Assembly: GCF_023276355.1 (NCBI RefSeq)
Contig: NZ_JALLPL010000001.1
Coordinates: forward strand, 620,001-684,000
Direction of reading: 5' to 3'
DNA: 64,000 nt
Source of the DNA: Haloplanus sp. XH21
GTDB taxonomy: Archaea > Halobacteriota > Halobacteria > Halobacteriales > Haloferacaceae
This document shows positions 45,437 to 52,286 of this stretch, in pieces. The notes beneath the pieces are model-generated. The model made no database searches and was not told where the DNA came from. It saw only the letters and a list, made by a program, of their open reading frames with translations. Made by a program: the position numbers and the translations under genes. Position 1 is the first letter of the stretch. Every line of letters begins with the position of its first letter.

Positions 45437-46642
45437 GTGCTCGGAATCGACGCCGACCGCGGGCTGGGCCTCGTCCCCTGGCGGTCGAGCACGCTCTATG
45501 TCGTGCTCGCGTGCTCGCTGATGGGGGTCATGGGCGTCTCGCTCGTCAGTCCCGTCCTCCCCGACCTCCGCCCCGTGTTCGGCATCAGCGACGCGCAGGT
45601 CGGCCTCGTCATCACCGCCTACACGCTCCCCGGCGTCTTCGTCACCCCGTTCGTGGGTCTGGTCGCCGATCGGATCGGGCGCCGACGGGTGATCGTTCCG
45701 CTGCTCTTCGTGTTCGCCGCCGCCGGTGCGGGTGTCGCCTTCGCCCGCACCTTCTCCGAGGTGCTGGCGCTTCGCTTCCTGCAGGGCGTGGGCGCGAGCG
45801 CGCTCATCACGCTCGCGGTGACGCTCATCGGCGATGTCTACGAGGGCCGGCGCCGTGACGCGGTGATGGGGGTCAACGGGAGCACTGTCGGCACCGGCGC
45901 GGCGTTCTACCCCCTGCTCGGCGGAGCGCTCGCCGGGATCCGCTGGAACGCGCCCTTCCTCTTTTTCGGCGTCGGTGCGCTGGTCGGCCTGTTTGCCCTG
46001 CTCGCGCTGGCCGAACCCGAAGCCGAGCGCTCGACCGACGTGCGCGCGTACCTCTCCCGTCTCTGGAAAGTCGCCCTGCTCCCCGAGGCGCTGGCCATCT
46101 TTCTGGCGCTGTTCGTGGCTTTCTTTCTCTTCTACGGCGCCATCCTCACGGCGCTCCCACTGCTCCTGAGCGACGTGTTCGGTCTCGGCGCCGGCCGCAT
46201 CGGCGCCACGCTGTCGATGGTCGCCGTCGCGAGCGCCGCCGTCTCCTCGCAGTACGGCCGCCTCTCGTCGCTCCGGTCGGCGGCGGAACTCGTCGCGCTC
46301 GGCTTCGTCGCCTACGGCGTGGGACTGTTGGCGGTGCGCCTCGCGCCGTCGCCGGCGACGGTGGCCGTCGCGTTGCTCGTGTTCGGCGTCGGCTTCGGCG
46401 TCGTGATGCCCTCTATCGACTCCGCCGTCGTGACGCTCGTCGCCGACGACCTGCGCGCCGGCGCGATGGGGATGCGAACGAGTATGCTCCGCCTCGGACA
46501 GACGCTCGGTCCCGTGGGCTTCACCGTCACCGCCGACGCCGCCTTCGCGTCGACTGTCGTCGGCTACCGGAGTCTGCTCGTCGTCTCCGGAGCTGTCGCC
46601 GTCGTCGCCGGCGTCGGGAGCTACCTGTGGCTGCGGCGCTAG
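45437..46642 (+). CDS. MFS transporter (multidrug-efflux type)
   Basis: 401 residues from the GTG at 45437, 12 hydrophobic segments. The opening SLMGVMGVSLVSPVLPDLRP carries the early Pro-rich drug-transporter signature, followed by VGLVADRIGRRRVIVPLL. An upstream in-frame extension overlaps the preceding gene and is not believable. It ends within the convergent Usp gene by 4 nt. Probably an efflux pump; substrate unknown. Confidence 0.85.
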   Translation: MLGIDADRGLGLVPWRSSTLYVVLACSLMGVMGVSLVSPVLPDLRPVFGISDAQVGLVITAYTLPGVFVTPFVGLVADRIGRRRVIVPLLFVFAAAGAGVAFARTFSEVLALRFLQGVGASALITLAVTLIGDVYEGRRRDAVMGVNGSTVGTGAAFYPLLGGALAGIRWNAPFLFFGVGALVGLFALLALAEPEAERSTDVRAYLSRLWKVALLPEALAIFLALFVAFFLFYGAILTALPLLLSDVFGLGAGRIGATLSMVAVASAAVSSQYGRLSSLRSAAELVALGFVAYGVGLLAVRLAPSPATVAVALLVFGVGFGVVMPSIDSAVVTLVADDLRAGAMGMRTSMLRLGQTLGPVGFTVTADAAFASTVVGYRSLLVVSGAVAVVAGVGSYLWLRR

Positions 46643-47058
46643 TCCTCGTTTTCCCGCGTCTGTTCGACCGTCACCACGGGCACGTCCGCGTTGGCCAAGA
46701 TGAGCTTCGAGACGCTGCCGAGCAGGATCTTCCCCAGGCCCGTCCGCTTGCGCGAGCCGATGACGATGTAGTCCGGTTCGATCTCTTCGGCCACTTGCAG
46801 GATGTGGTTCGCGGTCCGTCCCGTGGGCAGGTCGCGCCGCGACTGCTCGGGCATGATCCGCAGGTCCACGCCCTCCAGGTCGCCGATGACCGACGTGACG
46901 ATCTCCTCGATCTCCTCGCGGGCAGCCTCCTCGTCGCCGTCTTCGGGCACGACGTGGAGTATGACGAGCTGCATGTCCATGCTGGTCGAAAGGTCGTATG
47001 CGGTTTCGACGACCCCTTTACAACCGGGGTCTCTGTCGATGGCGGTCAGTATCACCAT
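46639..47058 (-). CDS. Universal stress protein (UspA domain)
   Basis: 139 residues. The fold begins MVILTAIDRDPGCKGVVETA. The ATP-binding glycine motif appears as IVIGSRKRTGLGKILLGSVS followed by KLILANADVPVVTV. Single-domain Usp, probably ATP-binding. The AT-rich TCACAATAATTAAAG segment just upstream (about 47073-47087) is its likely promoter. Confidence 0.9.
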   Translation of the reverse strand: MVILTAIDRDPGCKGVVETAYDLSTSMDMQLVILHVVPEDGDEEAAREEIEEIVTSVIGDLEGVDLRIMPEQSRRDLPTGRTANHILQVAEEIEPDYIVIGSRKRTGLGKILLGSVSKLILANADVPVVTVEQTRENED

Positions 47059-47446
47059 GCTATCATTAATTCCTCACAATAATTAAAGCGCTTTCGACCG
47101 CGTCATTCATTACTACCGTCATCTCGCCGCATTGCCGCCGCTGTGCCGGTGTTCCGGATCGGATCGGACTGCAGTCCCCCGGTTTTTGCGGCTCGCTGTC
47201 GGTCGCGTTACGTGTTATATGTCCTTAAGGAATATGGTCTTCATGATAAATAATGCAAAAAGTGCACCTTTCGGCGTTTATACCACCGTCACTATCTTTC
47301 ACCTGGTTGAACATGCGGCAGAGACCAGCACGACTCATTACCGCGTCGACTCATCTCGACGGGACCGCACGTATCGATCATCGGCACTCCGGAACACGCC
47401 GTTCCGGCTTCCCCGGTAGCGGGGCGCGCTCCGGAGGTGTGTCGTC
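47059..47446. other. Intergenic region between Usp and the Nramp-like gene
   Basis: These 388 bp hold the divergent promoters. One is an AT-rich block next to the Usp start (47060-47090). The other is around 47210-47300, with TGTTATATGTCC, TGATAAATAATGC and CGTTTATACC as TATA candidates for the transporter. CGGAACACGCCGTTCCGG (47390-47407) is a hairpin near the start. No gene seen. Confidence 0.5.
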
Positions 47447-48844
47447 GTGAGCACCGGCGAAATCGAGGCCGGCGAGGCCCGTATCTCGGAGCCGCCGTCG
47501 ACGCTGAAGGAGTTCCTCAGCTACATGGGACCCGCCTGGGTCTTCACCGCCTCGCAGATCGGCGGCGGTGAAGTCCTGAGCGTCCCGCTCGGTGGTGCGT
47601 ACCTCGGTATGGAGGGTATCTGGCTCATCCCACTCATCACGTTCACGAAGATCTTCGGCCAGTACTACCTCGTTCGGTACGGCGTCATGACCGGCGACAC
47701 GTTCCTCGACGCCCTCTACGAGAAGGGCTGGTGGCTGAAGTGGATCTTCTACTACGTGTTCCTGGGCGGAATCATCTACGCCATCGGTCTCTCCGGCCAT
47801 CTCGGTGAGACCGCGGGCGCGTTCAATCACCTGGTCCCGGCCATCCCGACGAACGTCTGGATGATCGGAACGGTGCTCGCCGGCCTGGGTATCGTCGGCC
47901 TGCGCTCGTACGGCCTCATCGAGAAGATCGCCACGTCGCTGCTGTGGATCTTCTTGGTGCTCATCGCCTTCGTCTCGCTCAGCACGGTCGATGTCTGGGG
48001 TCCCAACCTCGCGAGTGGCCTCGTCCCTTCGATACCCGGCCGCGTCGAAGGTCTCGGCGTCGGGGGCATGGCGTTCATCCTCACGATGTTCGGCTGGATC
48101 GGCGCGGGCTTCGGTCCGACCGTCTCCTACGTCTGGTTCGCCAAGGACAAGGTGATGGGGATGTTCGAACCCCTCGATAAGGGCTACGACATCGACAAGT
48201 ACGACCTCTCCGACGAGGAGATTCACCGCCTCAAGGGCTGGGGCGACATCGTCCTCTGGCAAAACCTGCTCTCGTCGGCCATCCTGGCGACCTTCTCCTT
48301 CTTCATGTGGACGGCCGCGGCCGCGACGCTCCACGTCGAAGGCATCCAGCCCAGCGGCTTCACCGTCATCCCGGAGATGGCCAACATCTTCACGACCCAG
48401 TTCGGCGAGTGGTCCGCCACGCTGTTCCTGCTGACCACCGTTGCCGCGCTGTTCTCGACGCTCATCGGCCCGCTCTACGGCATGTCGCGGCTCTGGGAGG
48501 ACGCCTTCGCGCTCCACGGCGTGTTCGACAACTACAACATCACCCGTGACACCACCTTCCGGCTGACGATCGTCCTCTTCTCGGCGATCCCGCTCGCGCT
48601 CAACCTCTTCATCGAGGCGCCGCTGATCCTCTTTGCCCTCTCCGGTGCCCTCTTCGCGCCGGTCATCGGGCTCATGTACCTCGCCGTGATGTACATGTCC
48701 TTCGAGATCGACATCGACTCGCTCTCGCCGGTGCGAACCTGGGCGGTCGCGCTCGCCATCTTCGCCGGCGTCGTCATGATCGTCTCCGGGGTCTGGGAAG
48801 CCCGCAGTTCGCTCCAGACCATCCAGACGCTGCTCGGCCTGTAG
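47447..48844 (+). CDS. Nramp-superfamily transporter with non-canonical metal site
   Basis: 465 residues, about 11-12 membrane segments. Overall pattern fits Nramp/SLC11. Segment 1, where canonical members have DPGN, reads TASQIGGGE (34-42). The segment-6 region reads LTMFGWIGAGFGPT without the metal-binding Met-Pro-His. A cytoplasmic loop with DIDKYDLSDEEIHRLKGWGD is inserted near residue 245-265. It probably carries something other than Mn2+/Fe2+. The GTG start follows GGAGGTGTG by a few nt. Confidence 0.8.
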   Translation: MSTGEIEAGEARISEPPSTLKEFLSYMGPAWVFTASQIGGGEVLSVPLGGAYLGMEGIWLIPLITFTKIFGQYYLVRYGVMTGDTFLDALYEKGWWLKWIFYYVFLGGIIYAIGLSGHLGETAGAFNHLVPAIPTNVWMIGTVLAGLGIVGLRSYGLIEKIATSLLWIFLVLIAFVSLSTVDVWGPNLASGLVPSIPGRVEGLGVGGMAFILTMFGWIGAGFGPTVSYVWFAKDKVMGMFEPLDKGYDIDKYDLSDEEIHRLKGWGDIVLWQNLLSSAILATFSFFMWTAAAATLHVEGIQPSGFTVIPEMANIFTTQFGEWSATLFLLTTVAALFSTLIGPLYGMSRLWEDAFALHGVFDNYNITRDTTFRLTIVLFSAIPLALNLFIEAPLILFALSGALFAPVIGLMYLAVMYMSFEIDIDSLSPVRTWAVALAIFAGVVMIVSGVWEARSSLQTIQTLLGL

Positions 48845-49308
48845 TCGGCGACTCGCGACCCTGCGGTGCGGCCTCGGTTCCGCTTTCTCGCCCGAGACAC
48901 CGGAGACGGATCTGTGTCCCTCGGTGACTGGCACTCGTCACTCGTCGGAGGTCGACGCGCCCGGAGAGAGTCGTAGCCGTAGCCGTACCTCGGACGGCCG
49001 ACCTGCCGCCGGCATCGGCGCTTTTCCGACCACACGCCGTGACGCCCCATCCGAGACTGCTATAGTAGCGTTAGGAACTGTTTGCCCATGCTCGCCAGAC
49101 GGCACGCGATCAGGTGTGCGATGACTTTCAAAGGCTACTATACCACCTTCTCTCGGTGTCCACCCCACACTCCTCGGCACCGCGCCCGCCCTCGACACGC
49201 TTCGATTGGCACGCGTGGTCTCACACGATAGCCGCCGCCCGGTCGACCGGACACCGCCGTGTGCCGCCGCTGGTCGCCGCTGAAAACAACGAAGAAAGCG
49301 TTGCGCCG
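48845..49308. other. Intergenic region holding the first palindromic repeat copy
   Basis: 464 bp with no credible gene. It contains the small mobile-type repeat at 49061-49142. The remainder is ordinary GC-rich spacer between two convergent genes. Confidence 0.6.
49061..49142 (+). mobile_element. MITE-like element, copy 1
   Basis: An 82-bp unit bounded by TATAGTAGC and GCTACTATA. It shares TAGTAGCGTT-GGAACTGT at one end and GCGATCAGGTGTGCGATGAC at the other with copy 2 (52056-52139), which is in reverse orientation. It is too short to encode a transposase. No clear target duplication by eye. Confidence 0.65.
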
Positions 49309-50685
49309 TCAGTCGATCTGCGGTTCGGCGTCGTCGAGGTTCTCGCGCGCCGAGTCGAGCAGGAGTTTCCGCTCGGCGCGGGCGACGACGCGGCGCACCT
49401 CGGCCACGGCGTCGATGTTCGACGACAGCGAACTGATACCCTTCTCGACGAGGAACTTCGCCATGTCCGGGTGCGATCCGGACTGACCGGTGATGGTGGT
49501 GTCCACGTCGTGTTCGTTACACGCCTCGATGACCTCCGCCATCGCCTCCAGGATCGTGGGGTGGAAGTCGTCGAAGCGGTCCGCGACCATCGCGTTGTTG
49601 CGGTCGACGGCGAGCATGAACTGGACGATGTCGTTGGTGCCCAGCGCGACGAAGTCGATACCCTCGTCGATGATCTCGTCGATGGATCGGATGCTGGCGG
49701 GCGTCTCGATCATGGCGCCCCACTCGCGCTTCTCGGGGTCGATGCCGACCTCTTCCATCAGTTCCCGTGCCCGGCGCACGTCCGACGCGTCGTTGGGGAG
49801 CGGGAACATGACTTCGACGTTGTCGTAGCCCATGTCGTGCAGGCGCTTGAACGCGCGCAGTTCGAGCTTGACCATCTCGGGCTCCTTCAGACTGCGGCGG
49901 ATGCCGCGGTAGCCGAGCATCGGGTTGTGCTCGTGGGGTTCGTTCTCCCCCCCCGTGAGCTCCGCGAGTTCGTCCGTCGGCGCGTCGAGGGTGCGGGCCC
50001 GGACCGGTCGCGGGTAGAACGCGTCCGCGACCTTCCGGATCTCCTCGGAAATCTCCTCGACGAACGCCTCCTCGCCGTGATCGGCGACGTAGCGCTCGGG
50101 CGTCTTGCCCGTCGAGAGCAGGATGTGTTCGAGACGGAGCAGGCCGACGCCGTCCGCGCCGGTGTCGGCCGCCCGTTCTGCGGCGTCCGGAATCGAGACG
50201 TTGACCTTCACTTCCGTCGCCGTCGTGGGGGCGCCGCCGGTCACTTCCACGTCGCCCTCGGGGTCGGCGTCCGCCACGTCGGTCGTGTCGGACTCCGACT
50301 CCGGTTCCGGGGCGACGACGGTGCCTTTCTGGCCGTCCAGCGTGATGCGCTGGCCGTCGGAGAGTACGTCCGTCGCGTCGCCCGCGCCGACGATGGCCGG
50401 CACGCCGAGTTCGCGCGAGACGATGGCCGCGTGGGAGGTCATCCCGCCCTCGTCGGTGAGGATGCCGGCCGACCGCTTCATCGCCGGGACCATGTCCGGG
50501 GCCGTCATCTCGGTGACGATGACGTCGCCCTCCTCGATGCGGTCCGCTTCGTCGATGTCCTCGATGATCTTCACCGGACCGGTCGCGACGCCGGGACTCG
50601 ACCCGTAGCCGTTGACCAGTTCCTCGCCCGCCTCGGGCGTCTCTTCGTCTTCCTCCGCCTCCGCCATGTTCTCGTTGACCGTCAT
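49309..50685 (-). CDS. N-terminally truncated PEP synthase paralogue
   Basis: 458 residues. The swivelling phosphohistidine domain (about 25-128; GGMTSHAAIVSRELG with His85) is followed by a variable acidic linker and the PEP/pyruvate-binding barrel (RARTLDAPTDEL, HNPMLGYRGIRRS, WGAMIETPAS, ALGTNDIVQFMLAVDRNN). The ATP-grasp N-terminal domain of full-length enzymes (about 750-800 residues) is absent. The preceding gene ends immediately before the ATG (TAAATG), so no N-terminal part lies upstream. The catalytic Cys (normally CGQ) is Thr399 in TTITGQSGSHP. It is co-transcribed with GAPDH. It may be inactive, regulatory, or need a separate ATP-binding partner. Confidence 0.85.
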   Translation of the reverse strand: MTVNENMAEAEEDEETPEAGEELVNGYGSSPGVATGPVKIIEDIDEADRIEEGDVIVTEMTAPDMVPAMKRSAGILTDEGGMTSHAAIVSRELGVPAIVGAGDATDVLSDGQRITLDGQKGTVVAPEPESESDTTDVADADPEGDVEVTGGAPTTATEVKVNVSIPDAAERAADTGADGVGLLRLEHILLSTGKTPERYVADHGEEAFVEEISEEIRKVADAFYPRPVRARTLDAPTDELAELTGGENEPHEHNPMLGYRGIRRSLKEPEMVKLELRAFKRLHDMGYDNVEVMFPLPNDASDVRRARELMEEVGIDPEKREWGAMIETPASIRSIDEIIDEGIDFVALGTNDIVQFMLAVDRNNAMVADRFDDFHPTILEAMAEVIEACNEHDVDTTITGQSGSHPDMAKFLVEKGISSLSSNIDAVAEVRRVVARAERKLLLDSARENLDDAEPQID

Positions 50686-51678
50686 TTAAATGTCGCCGAT
50701 CCCCATCACGTCGTTCGTCAGTTCGATGCTCTCCTCCGCGTCGGCCGACTCCGTCATCGCTCGGATGGCGTCGACGTTCTCCGGCACCACGTCGCTCTCG
50801 CGGTGGATGGACTGGAACAGGTGGAGCTGGTTGCTCTCGACCGTGATGGAGTCCTCGAAGATCTGGTTCTCGTAGAGGTTCATCCGGTCGCGCCCGCGGT
50901 CGAGCGCGAACTCCTGGAGATCCCACCCCGACGACATGTCGAGGTCGCCGTCGATGACGTGGATGCGGGACTGGGAGGCGAGCAGATCGGCGACCTCCTC
51001 GGCGCTCGGCTCCGCGTCCAGTTCCACGTTGATGCCGTGGAAGTGGTGGCGCACCGTCGGCACCTTCATGCCCATCGTCGTGATCTGCCCGATTTCGGGG
51101 ATCACTTCGAGCGCGTCGGGGCCGTGGTGCGAGGGCAGTGTCACCGGGTCGGCCGAGGTGACGGCGTGTTCGCCGCGGCAGCGAACCAGCGTGATGCTGG
51201 AGCGTTCGACGCCGTACTCCTCGACGAGCGGGGCGAACATCCGGTTCAGGCCGGTCGTGTTACAGGAGACGATACGGACGTAGTCCTTGCCCATCGCCTC
51301 GGAGTAGTTGGCGCGGGCGGTGAAGCTCTCGTCGGCCACGTCGGCGCCCTCGCCACCCTGGAACAGAGCGGGGGTGTCGTGTTCCTCGTAGATGGGGCGG
51401 TACTCCGCGCCCATCCCGGCCGGCGTCGCGTCGGCGACGATGTCGCTCGCGTCGATGAGGTCGATGATGTCGCCCGCGACGTCCAGGTCGACGCCCTCCC
51501 AGCGGTCGTGACGCCCCTCGGGGACGTAGATGTCGTAGCCTCGCTCGGCGGCGGCGTCCGCCGTGTGGTTCGGACTCGCCTTCCCGATGCCGACCAGTTC
51601 CATGTCGGGCATCGAGTTCACTGCATCGGCGACGCGCTTGCCGATGGTGCCGTACCCATTAACGCCTACGCGGATCAT
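50686..51678 (-). CDS. gapB: Archaeal (type II) glyceraldehyde-3-phosphate dehydrogenase
   Basis: 330 residues from the ATG at 51678 (MIRVGVNGYGTIGKRVADAV). The nucleotide-binding opening and catalytic Cys139 in VSCNTTGLNR identify the archaeal class, used mainly in gluconeogenesis. An ATG eight codons earlier is also open. It is first in an operon with the PEP-synthase-like gene, so both point to sugar synthesis from C3 units. Confidence 0.94.
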   Translation of the reverse strand: MIRVGVNGYGTIGKRVADAVNSMPDMELVGIGKASPNHTADAAAERGYDIYVPEGRHDRWEGVDLDVAGDIIDLIDASDIVADATPAGMGAEYRPIYEEHDTPALFQGGEGADVADESFTARANYSEAMGKDYVRIVSCNTTGLNRMFAPLVEEYGVERSSITLVRCRGEHAVTSADPVTLPSHHGPDALEVIPEIGQITTMGMKVPTVRHHFHGINVELDAEPSAEEVADLLASQSRIHVIDGDLDMSSGWDLQEFALDRGRDRMNLYENQIFEDSITVESNQLHLFQSIHRESDVVPENVDAIRAMTESADAEESIELTNDVMGIGDI

Positions 51679-51799
51679 ACCGGGAGTTGGCTTCACCCTC
51701 ATATAGTGCCGACGCCTTTCGCAGATTTTGCATGAACTTTCGTTCTTAAATCGTGGGGGGACTAGGTACTGGTATCACCGCCCGGTGTCTCCGCTCAGT

Positions 51800-52015
51800 A
51801 TGAACGATCCGAAACAACAGGTCTCCAGTTCCGGTATTCGCGTGCTCGGCGTCTTCGTCGCCGTGTACTTGGTCATCGGGTCGTACATGTACTTCTATCT
51901 CGACCTCCCCGCCCTCGCGTACGTCGCCTACGGCATCATCAGCTGGATCGGCGGGATGGTGCTCTTCTACTATCTCCACACGTCGTACATGGCTAGCTTC
52001 GACCCCTCGGAGTAG
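51800..52015 (+). CDS. Small two-span membrane protein, 71 aa
   Basis: 71 residues from ATG 51800 (MNDPKQQVSSSGIRVLGVFV). Two membrane segments (about 14-34 and 38-58) and an acidic end. It is divergent from gapB, 121 bp away. Function unknown. Confidence 0.6.
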   Translation: MNDPKQQVSSSGIRVLGVFVAVYLVIGSYMYFYLDLPALAYVAYGIISWIGGMVLFYYLHTSYMASFDPSE

Positions 52016-52055: not shown

Positions 52056-52139
52056 TACAGTAGCCTTTGTAAGTCATCGCACACCTGATCGCCAGACAGC
52101 GTGCGATCAGGTGTGTACACAGTTCCAAACGCTACTATC
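52056..52139 (-). mobile_element. MITE-like element, copy 2
   Basis: An 84-bp unit from TACAGTAGC to GCTACTATC, inverted relative to copy 1. Inside, ACACCTGATCGC (52081-52092) and GCGATCAGGTGT (52103-52114) form a perfect 12-bp stem with a 10-nt loop. The equivalent left arm in copy 1 is degraded. Confidence 0.65.
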
Positions 52140-52286
52140 GCCCTCGGATCTCACTCCTCTCCCACGAATCCTTAATTATTGTTCATGTACTCCCCCGGCA
52201 GTATTCTTCACCATCGATCATTTTATCATGGTCATTTGGACAGTCCGGTAAATATATTGGGTTGGCGCAGTATTTGCTAGATAGCT

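Follow-up and report, generated by a model that had tools for sequence, protein, structure and literature searches.

Archaeal PEP synthases (PpsA, EC 2.7.9.2; 8a8e, 9dae) join an ATP-grasp domain to a phosphohistidine domain and a PEP barrel. The enzyme of Haloferax volcanii acts only in gluconeogenesis, and its deletion blocks growth on acetate and pyruvate, not on glucose, as stated in excerpts of the source (PMC7746861). The same barrel is found in PTS Enzyme I (EC 2.7.3.9; 2hwg, 2hro), which transfers phosphate from PEP to its His without an ATP-grasp domain. In HpeHI, CreHI and the phenylphosphate synthase PpsAB, as far as extracts of the report go (PMC12167813), the swivel domain stands apart from the ATP-grasp domain and has been recruited to a catabolic pathway. 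Pyruvate kinase offers a possible analogy through a Thr in a related barrel, while its sequence and chemistry otherwise differ.

The locus described here, in a window of 64,000 nucleotides from a Haloplanus genome, encodes a PpsA relative (short-Pps) that departs from each of these arrangements. The phosphohistidine domain and PEP barrel of archaeal PpsA are retained, whereas the ATP-grasp domain is missing and the partner gene is an altered type II GAPDH paralogue (gap2); ATP- and pyruvate-dependent formation of PEP, AMP and Pi by short-Pps alone is hence implausible. Enzyme I possesses an HPr-binding domain and a Cys, neither of which is present in short-Pps. HpeHI, CreHI and PpsAB, on the part of the source available to us, have a dedicated ATP-grasp subunit and no PEP barrel, whereas short-Pps is the reverse.

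A PEP synthase paralogue with Thr in place of Cys

Short-Pps is a 458-aa open reading frame with an ATG start (49309..50685, minus strand). Its Pfam matches are PF00391 (the mobile His domain, residues 49-120) and PF02896 (the PEP barrel, residues 153-437); the Pfam search of the protein returned no PF01326 (ATP-grasp) match, and only profile positions 336-796 of 798 are covered in the PPS model NF005057. The GGxTSH motif of the phosphohistidine domain is present, and His85 lies in the sequence GGMTSHAAIVSREL, its codon computed to be at 50431..50433 on the minus strand. The first-pass annotation had thus correctly described both retained domains. Near the C-terminus the protein reads T399-G400-Q401, with the Thr codon ACC at 49489..49491 (minus strand), and in the alignment the residue opposite T399 is Cys, both in the CGQ motif of three solved PPS sequences (8a8e, 9dae, 2ols) and in the CGE motif of two Enzyme I sequences (2hro, 2wqd). 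The AlphaFold2 model of short-Pps, built on 29 sequences, has a mean pLDDT of 78.7 and is usable outside residues 1-14, 130-153, 236-261 and 360-370. Its best fold match is 8a8e, the C-terminal octahedral part of PEP synthase (E 6e-31), followed by PPDK, PPS and Enzyme I; the match to pyruvate kinase is weak (E about 1e-9).

Both the missing ATP-grasp domain and the Cys-to-Thr change, which had been read from this single sequence, proved to be conserved. All 15 distinct short orthologues (11 Haloplanus, two Haloquadratum and two other haloarchaea) carry Thr as TGQ, compared with Cys in 107 of 107 full-length PpsA rows. H85, R184, R229, R231, E327, N351, D352 and R362 are identical in every row of both sets, so that all PEP-site residues but one are shared with archaeal PpsA. 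Short and full-length proteins are separated by 27 fixed or nearly fixed differences, among them T399, L348, A347, I353, V354, P297, I332 and R333. Around the PEP site, the changes are confined to the Cys acid/base position and some of its neighbours. We place these conserved and changed positions in the active site on the assumption that PPDK and Enzyme I chemistry applies. Two loci were left out of the counts. L088, a 518-aa frame with Cys in Halomarina oriensis, is a frameshifted full-length ppsA, since the region upstream encodes the ATP-grasp domain in a different frame (the apparent frameshift, at about L088 7740-7800, is probably a sequencing error), and L098 starts at a contig end. An apparent Thr in L141 was also dropped, as the regular-expression match sat in the linker and the true motif is CGQ.

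In the pyruvate half-reaction the acid/base role is expected to fall to Cys, and with this residue replaced the barrel might not act on pyruvate. However, Thr399 need not make short-Pps a dead enzyme: by analogy, the Thr of pyruvate kinase was reportedly studied as proton donor to enolpyruvate by Susan-Resiga and Nowak in 2004. Thr399 might act in the same manner or might indicate that the substrate has changed to one for which Cys is not required. The open-access literature gave no match for PPDK with Cys831.

The window genome also contains a full-length PpsA (C1:2273060-2275282) that keeps CGQ and is 63% identical to short-Pps across the common part; apart from it, only one weak partial match (31%) resembles short-Pps. 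This PpsA carries the only PF01326 match of the genome. A wider PF01326 survey covered 17 genome handles, namely the 15 distinct genomes with the short gene, the Haloplanus genome G198 without it, and G208, which gave the same match as G133 and was taken as the same MAG. In 16 of the 17, there was one PF01326 match each, always in full-length PpsA, and no orphan ATP-grasp (PPDK_N) partner was found; every carrier genome tested contains full-length PpsA. Since these 16 handles are without a second PPDK_N match, a classical split enzyme is unlikely, and the first-pass idea of half of such an enzyme, for which an orphan ATP-grasp protein had been proposed as the thing to seek, is weakened. The remaining handle, G010, shows a second, partial PF01326 match (G010:C1:581280-581885), which falls within an open frame of 1048 aa.

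PpsA content varies across the haloarchaea. Four near-complete genomes (G003, G075, G119 and G143; groups g16 and g47) gave no PpsA-like match at E 1e-20, and further g47 and g55 genomes gave none at a stricter profile threshold among the matches listed. Several genomes of groups f7, f17 and f11 encode a second full-length PpsA-like paralogue (L062-L064 and similar) that is about 37-42% identical to short-Pps and has another C-terminal motif. In G173, full-length PpsA is present in three copies, alongside three more frames that resemble Enzyme I.

The partner gene and the inherited cassette

The gap2 gene (50686..51678, minus strand; identified as an ORF, by family model and by alignment) abuts short-Pps, its TAA stop running straight into the ATG of the short gene (TAAATG), a junction already pointed out in the first-pass annotation, and it lies immediately upstream of the short gene in all lineages. 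It scores 346 bits against a cut-off of 233 in TIGR01546, belongs to the same fold family as the archaeal type II GAPDHs (1b7g, 2czc, 1cf2) and retains the catalytic Cys motif SCNTTG. It differs from them in that, in all 15 gap2 rows, RR has become RC and the RGPI/KGPIN stretch that follows is lost; these features are kept (R-R, RGPI) in 16 of 16 canonical GAPDH rows and in the three solved enzymes. The RR...KGPIN stretch beside the GAPDH active site presumably has a role in phosphate binding. The partner is therefore not the gluconeogenic GAPDH it had been taken for, but a diverged second type II copy, the canonical gene of the window genome being at G000:C1:34433-35440. Among 40 relatives, each of 12 gap2 carriers (11 Haloplanus and G010) has a second type II GAPDH that is 50-58% identical to gap2, and G198 has only the non-gap2 type. 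The 15 gap2 rows form one clade against 16 canonical rows (SH-aLRT 100). A gap2 structure model was set aside (mean pLDDT 44.8, from a 6-row alignment).

The short ORF and adjoining GAPDH gene are also present in 10 other Haloplanus, two Haloquadratum, one MAG and one further family, and because the pair recurs across those genomes short-Pps is not an assembly artefact. Named carriers include Haloplanus ruber, a Haloplanus MAG, Haloquadratum walsbyi J07HQW1 and J07HQW2, and MAG QS_8_65_32, which shares an identical short protein with G133; identity between the window locus and the named or same-genus Haloplanus loci is 87-92%. The short gene is found in 11 of 12 Haloplanus genomes, G198 being the one without it. 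Among the 195 genomes of the order, of which 24 with several or no matches were re-examined, it occurs in G000 (the window genome), G133 and G010 among the matches listed, and these are exactly the three genomes with gap2 at E 1e-125 or better. The short form is rare. A profile built from eight short proteins was run on the 391 genomes of the class, with no more than the four best candidates of each genome being scored; among the matches listed, 11 genomes reached 837 bits or above and none of the others exceeded 700. Median pN/pS over 55 Haloplanus pairs is 0.18 for the short gene and 0.15 for gap2; both coding regions are under purifying selection.

In a quick tree of 66 rows, in which the long G010 branch was flagged, the short proteins form one clade (SH-aLRT 100) with Haloquadratum nested in Haloplanus. 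Haloquadratum is likewise nested in the gap2 tree. Single clades and a nested Haloquadratum in both trees are as would be expected for a cassette transferred as a unit, and horizontal movement is part of the reading favoured below. Two inverted MITE-like copies of roughly 80 bp (window 49059-49142 and 52056-52141), each ending with AGTAGC/GCTACT-like termini, flank gap2, short-Pps and a small membrane gene in the window. Inverted repeats were rejected as general cassette ends, none of 30 nt or longer being found around six other cassette loci.

A linked transporter and a common promoter element

A transporter assigned to the Nramp fold by family score lies at 47447..48844 on the plus strand. 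Its score is above the Nramp family cut-off, and DPGN is absent from its sequence, with GPAWVFTASQIGGGE in its place as judged by eye; DPGN on helix 1 marks classical Nramp members, according to excerpts of the source (PMC10115441). Among solved structures it had no match at E of 1 or better, and the open-access literature on Nramp motifs yielded general papers only. An orthologue of it turned up in two of the 195 genomes, those of the carriers G000 and G133; the cassette of G010 has no close transporter orthologue beside it, just a distantly related Nramp-like gene. Divergent from the transporter is a universal stress protein (Usp) gene (46639..47058, minus strand), and divergent from gap2 is a gene for a 71-aa protein with two probable TM segments and no Pfam match (51801..52015, plus strand). 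In Haloplanus, Haloquadratum and QS_8, the gene for this 71-aa protein lies close to the cassette. G010 (L154 11213-15536) has neighbours of another kind: a DHDPS-family aldolase gene 26 bp downstream of the gap2-short pair in the same direction, then a mechanosensitive channel gene and an aldehyde ferredoxin oxidoreductase gene. These hint at aldehyde and pyruvate chemistry, in G010 alone.

Both gap2 and the transporter are preceded by an element ATGCAAAANNTG (also written TGCAAAANNTG) and then a TATA box. Before gap2 it reads TTCATGCAAAATCTGCG with the TATA box CTATATG, about 27 nt from the start codon (51702..51736, minus strand), and before the transporter ATAATGCAAAAAGTGCA with TATA (47250..47282, plus strand). 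The element precedes gap2 in all 19 aligned loci, some of which are from the same genome, except that of G010, and precedes the transporter in seven aligned loci, most weakly in QS_8. Scanning 16 genomes with the pattern TGCAAAANNTGN{12,19}TATA gave 30 rows, which reduce to 28 distinct places: 13 of these lie ahead of gap2, another 13 ahead of the transporter, and the last two elsewhere in the Haloquadratum genome G378. A backwards control pattern gave three matches. The strict pattern was absent from G198, which is without the cassette, and from G010, and it matched only the gap2 site in G133 and only the transporter site in G203. In G199, the transporter and Usp genes lie about 50 kb from gap2 and the element is still kept. 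The gap2-short pair and the transporter therefore look like one regulon of two transcription units. Neither the co-inherited transporter nor the shared promoter element had been noticed at first pass. In Haloarcula hispanica, TrmB binds the ppsA and gapII promoters, as reported in extracts of the source (PMC10817205). The element before gap2 differs from the TrmB-type motif, and a simple scan of 19 upstream regions found no such motif before gap2, so that TrmB control of gap2 was rejected. We take TACT-N6-9-(G)AGTA to be the TrmB motif. The short gene and gap2 share their inheritance and probably their control; in three of the four lineages this extends to the transporter.

Candidate functions of the module

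The reading we favour, tentatively and at somewhat less than an even chance, is that short-Pps is a neofunctionalised, phosphorylatable member of the PPS/PPDK/Enzyme I group, a His85 phosphotransferase paired with gap2 in a co-regulated uptake module made up of the Nramp-fold transporter, gap2 and short-Pps, together with the small membrane protein and Usp. His85 would shuttle a phosphoryl group between the 2-oxo-acid/PEP site of the barrel and a second partner in place of an ATP-grasp domain of its own. Adjacency and co-inheritance point to an acyl-phosphate handled by the translationally coupled gap2 as the most economical such partner. Short-Pps and gap2 would then interconvert PEP (or a similar enol-phosphate), a carboxylate and an aldehyde during assimilation of an imported organic solute; the transporter substrate would be organic, and an activator would bind the promoter element. 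The phosphorelay protein proposed at first pass is close to this reading in that His85 and its motif are kept.

Alternatively, short-Pps could be a regulatory or dominant-negative subunit that assembles with PpsA by way of its barrel to dampen or adjust PEP synthesis, or one that responds to PEP or pyruvate, a PEP-sensor role having also been put forward at first pass. We consider this rather unlikely. The barrel of the resident PpsA is similar enough (63% identity) to make co-assembly conceivable, the solved C-terminal part of PPS is octahedral by itself (8a8e), archaeal PPS forms large oligomers, with 24 subunits in octahedral order in Staphylothermus as described in excerpts of the source (PMC8100219), and the key Cys is lost. 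However, a pure decoy would have no need of the His85 motif and all the other PEP-site residues, and the cassette crosses families whose own PpsA differ and is tied to gap2 and the transporter, not to ppsA.

It is unlikely that the ATP-grasp domain of full-length PpsA works in trans, phosphorylating His85 of short-Pps, which would then phosphorylate another acceptor as in two-component dikinases. Two-component swivel/ATP-grasp kinases do exist (PMC12167813, in the portion available), a full PpsA accompanies the cassette in every carrier tested and the His motif is unchanged, but no dedicated ATP-grasp gene lies in or near the module, to which the PpsA genes are unlinked.

More doubtful as a proposal, and at most a minor candidate, is an ATP-free system of carboxylate activation and reduction powered by PEP. 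Here, His85 would take the phosphoryl group from PEP and transfer it onto a carboxylate, so that an acyl-phosphate and pyruvate result; gap2, which lacks the stretch that presumably binds the substrate phosphate, would reduce the acyl-phosphate to an aldehyde, which in G010 the adjoining DHDPS-type aldolase could join to the released pyruvate. Such a route would be a PEP-powered analogue of the order of kinase, semialdehyde dehydrogenase and aldolase that opens lysine biosynthesis, and its reversal would produce PEP independently of ATP. Judged by the hydrolysis energies of PEP and 1,3-bisphosphoglycerate, the forward direction is the favoured one.

An Enzyme I-like phosphorelay, with PEP phosphorylating His85 and the phosphate passing to an HPr-like protein, is very unlikely. 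Enzyme I is the second-best family of short-Pps by both sequence and fold; yet the HPr-binding domain is absent, the Enzyme I alignments begin at chain residue 152-153, and no PTS Enzyme I was seen in the window genome, given that only PpsA and the weak 31% partial match resemble short-Pps there. Finally, a decayed or misassembled ppsA copy, which the missing domain and altered catalytic residue might suggest if taken alone, has a negligible chance of being correct and is refuted by the purifying selection, the conserved promoter, the intact PpsA elsewhere and the orthologues, among which full-length forms with Cys were looked for and 15 of 15 were found to be short with Thr.

The names given by family score, PEP synthase, GAPDH and Nramp metal transporter, are probably all misleading at this locus. 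PEP synthase and type II GAPDH, two central gluconeogenic enzymes, have each given rise to an altered paralogue, and the two are always neighbours and form an inherited unit. If short-Pps is an active phosphotransferase without an ATP-grasp or HPr domain, it would represent a new use of the phosphohistidine swivel domain. No paper on this set of short-Pps, gap2 and transporter genes was found in the open-access literature, and good growth of H. walsbyi has been reported with pyruvate and dihydroxyacetone alone among carbon sources, according to excerpts of the source (PMC3102087). A few haloarchaea thus hold a conserved, apparently jointly controlled gene set that looks like an undescribed nutrient uptake pathway, and in Haloplanus and Haloquadratum the module is a concrete, testable candidate for an unassigned pathway of this kind.
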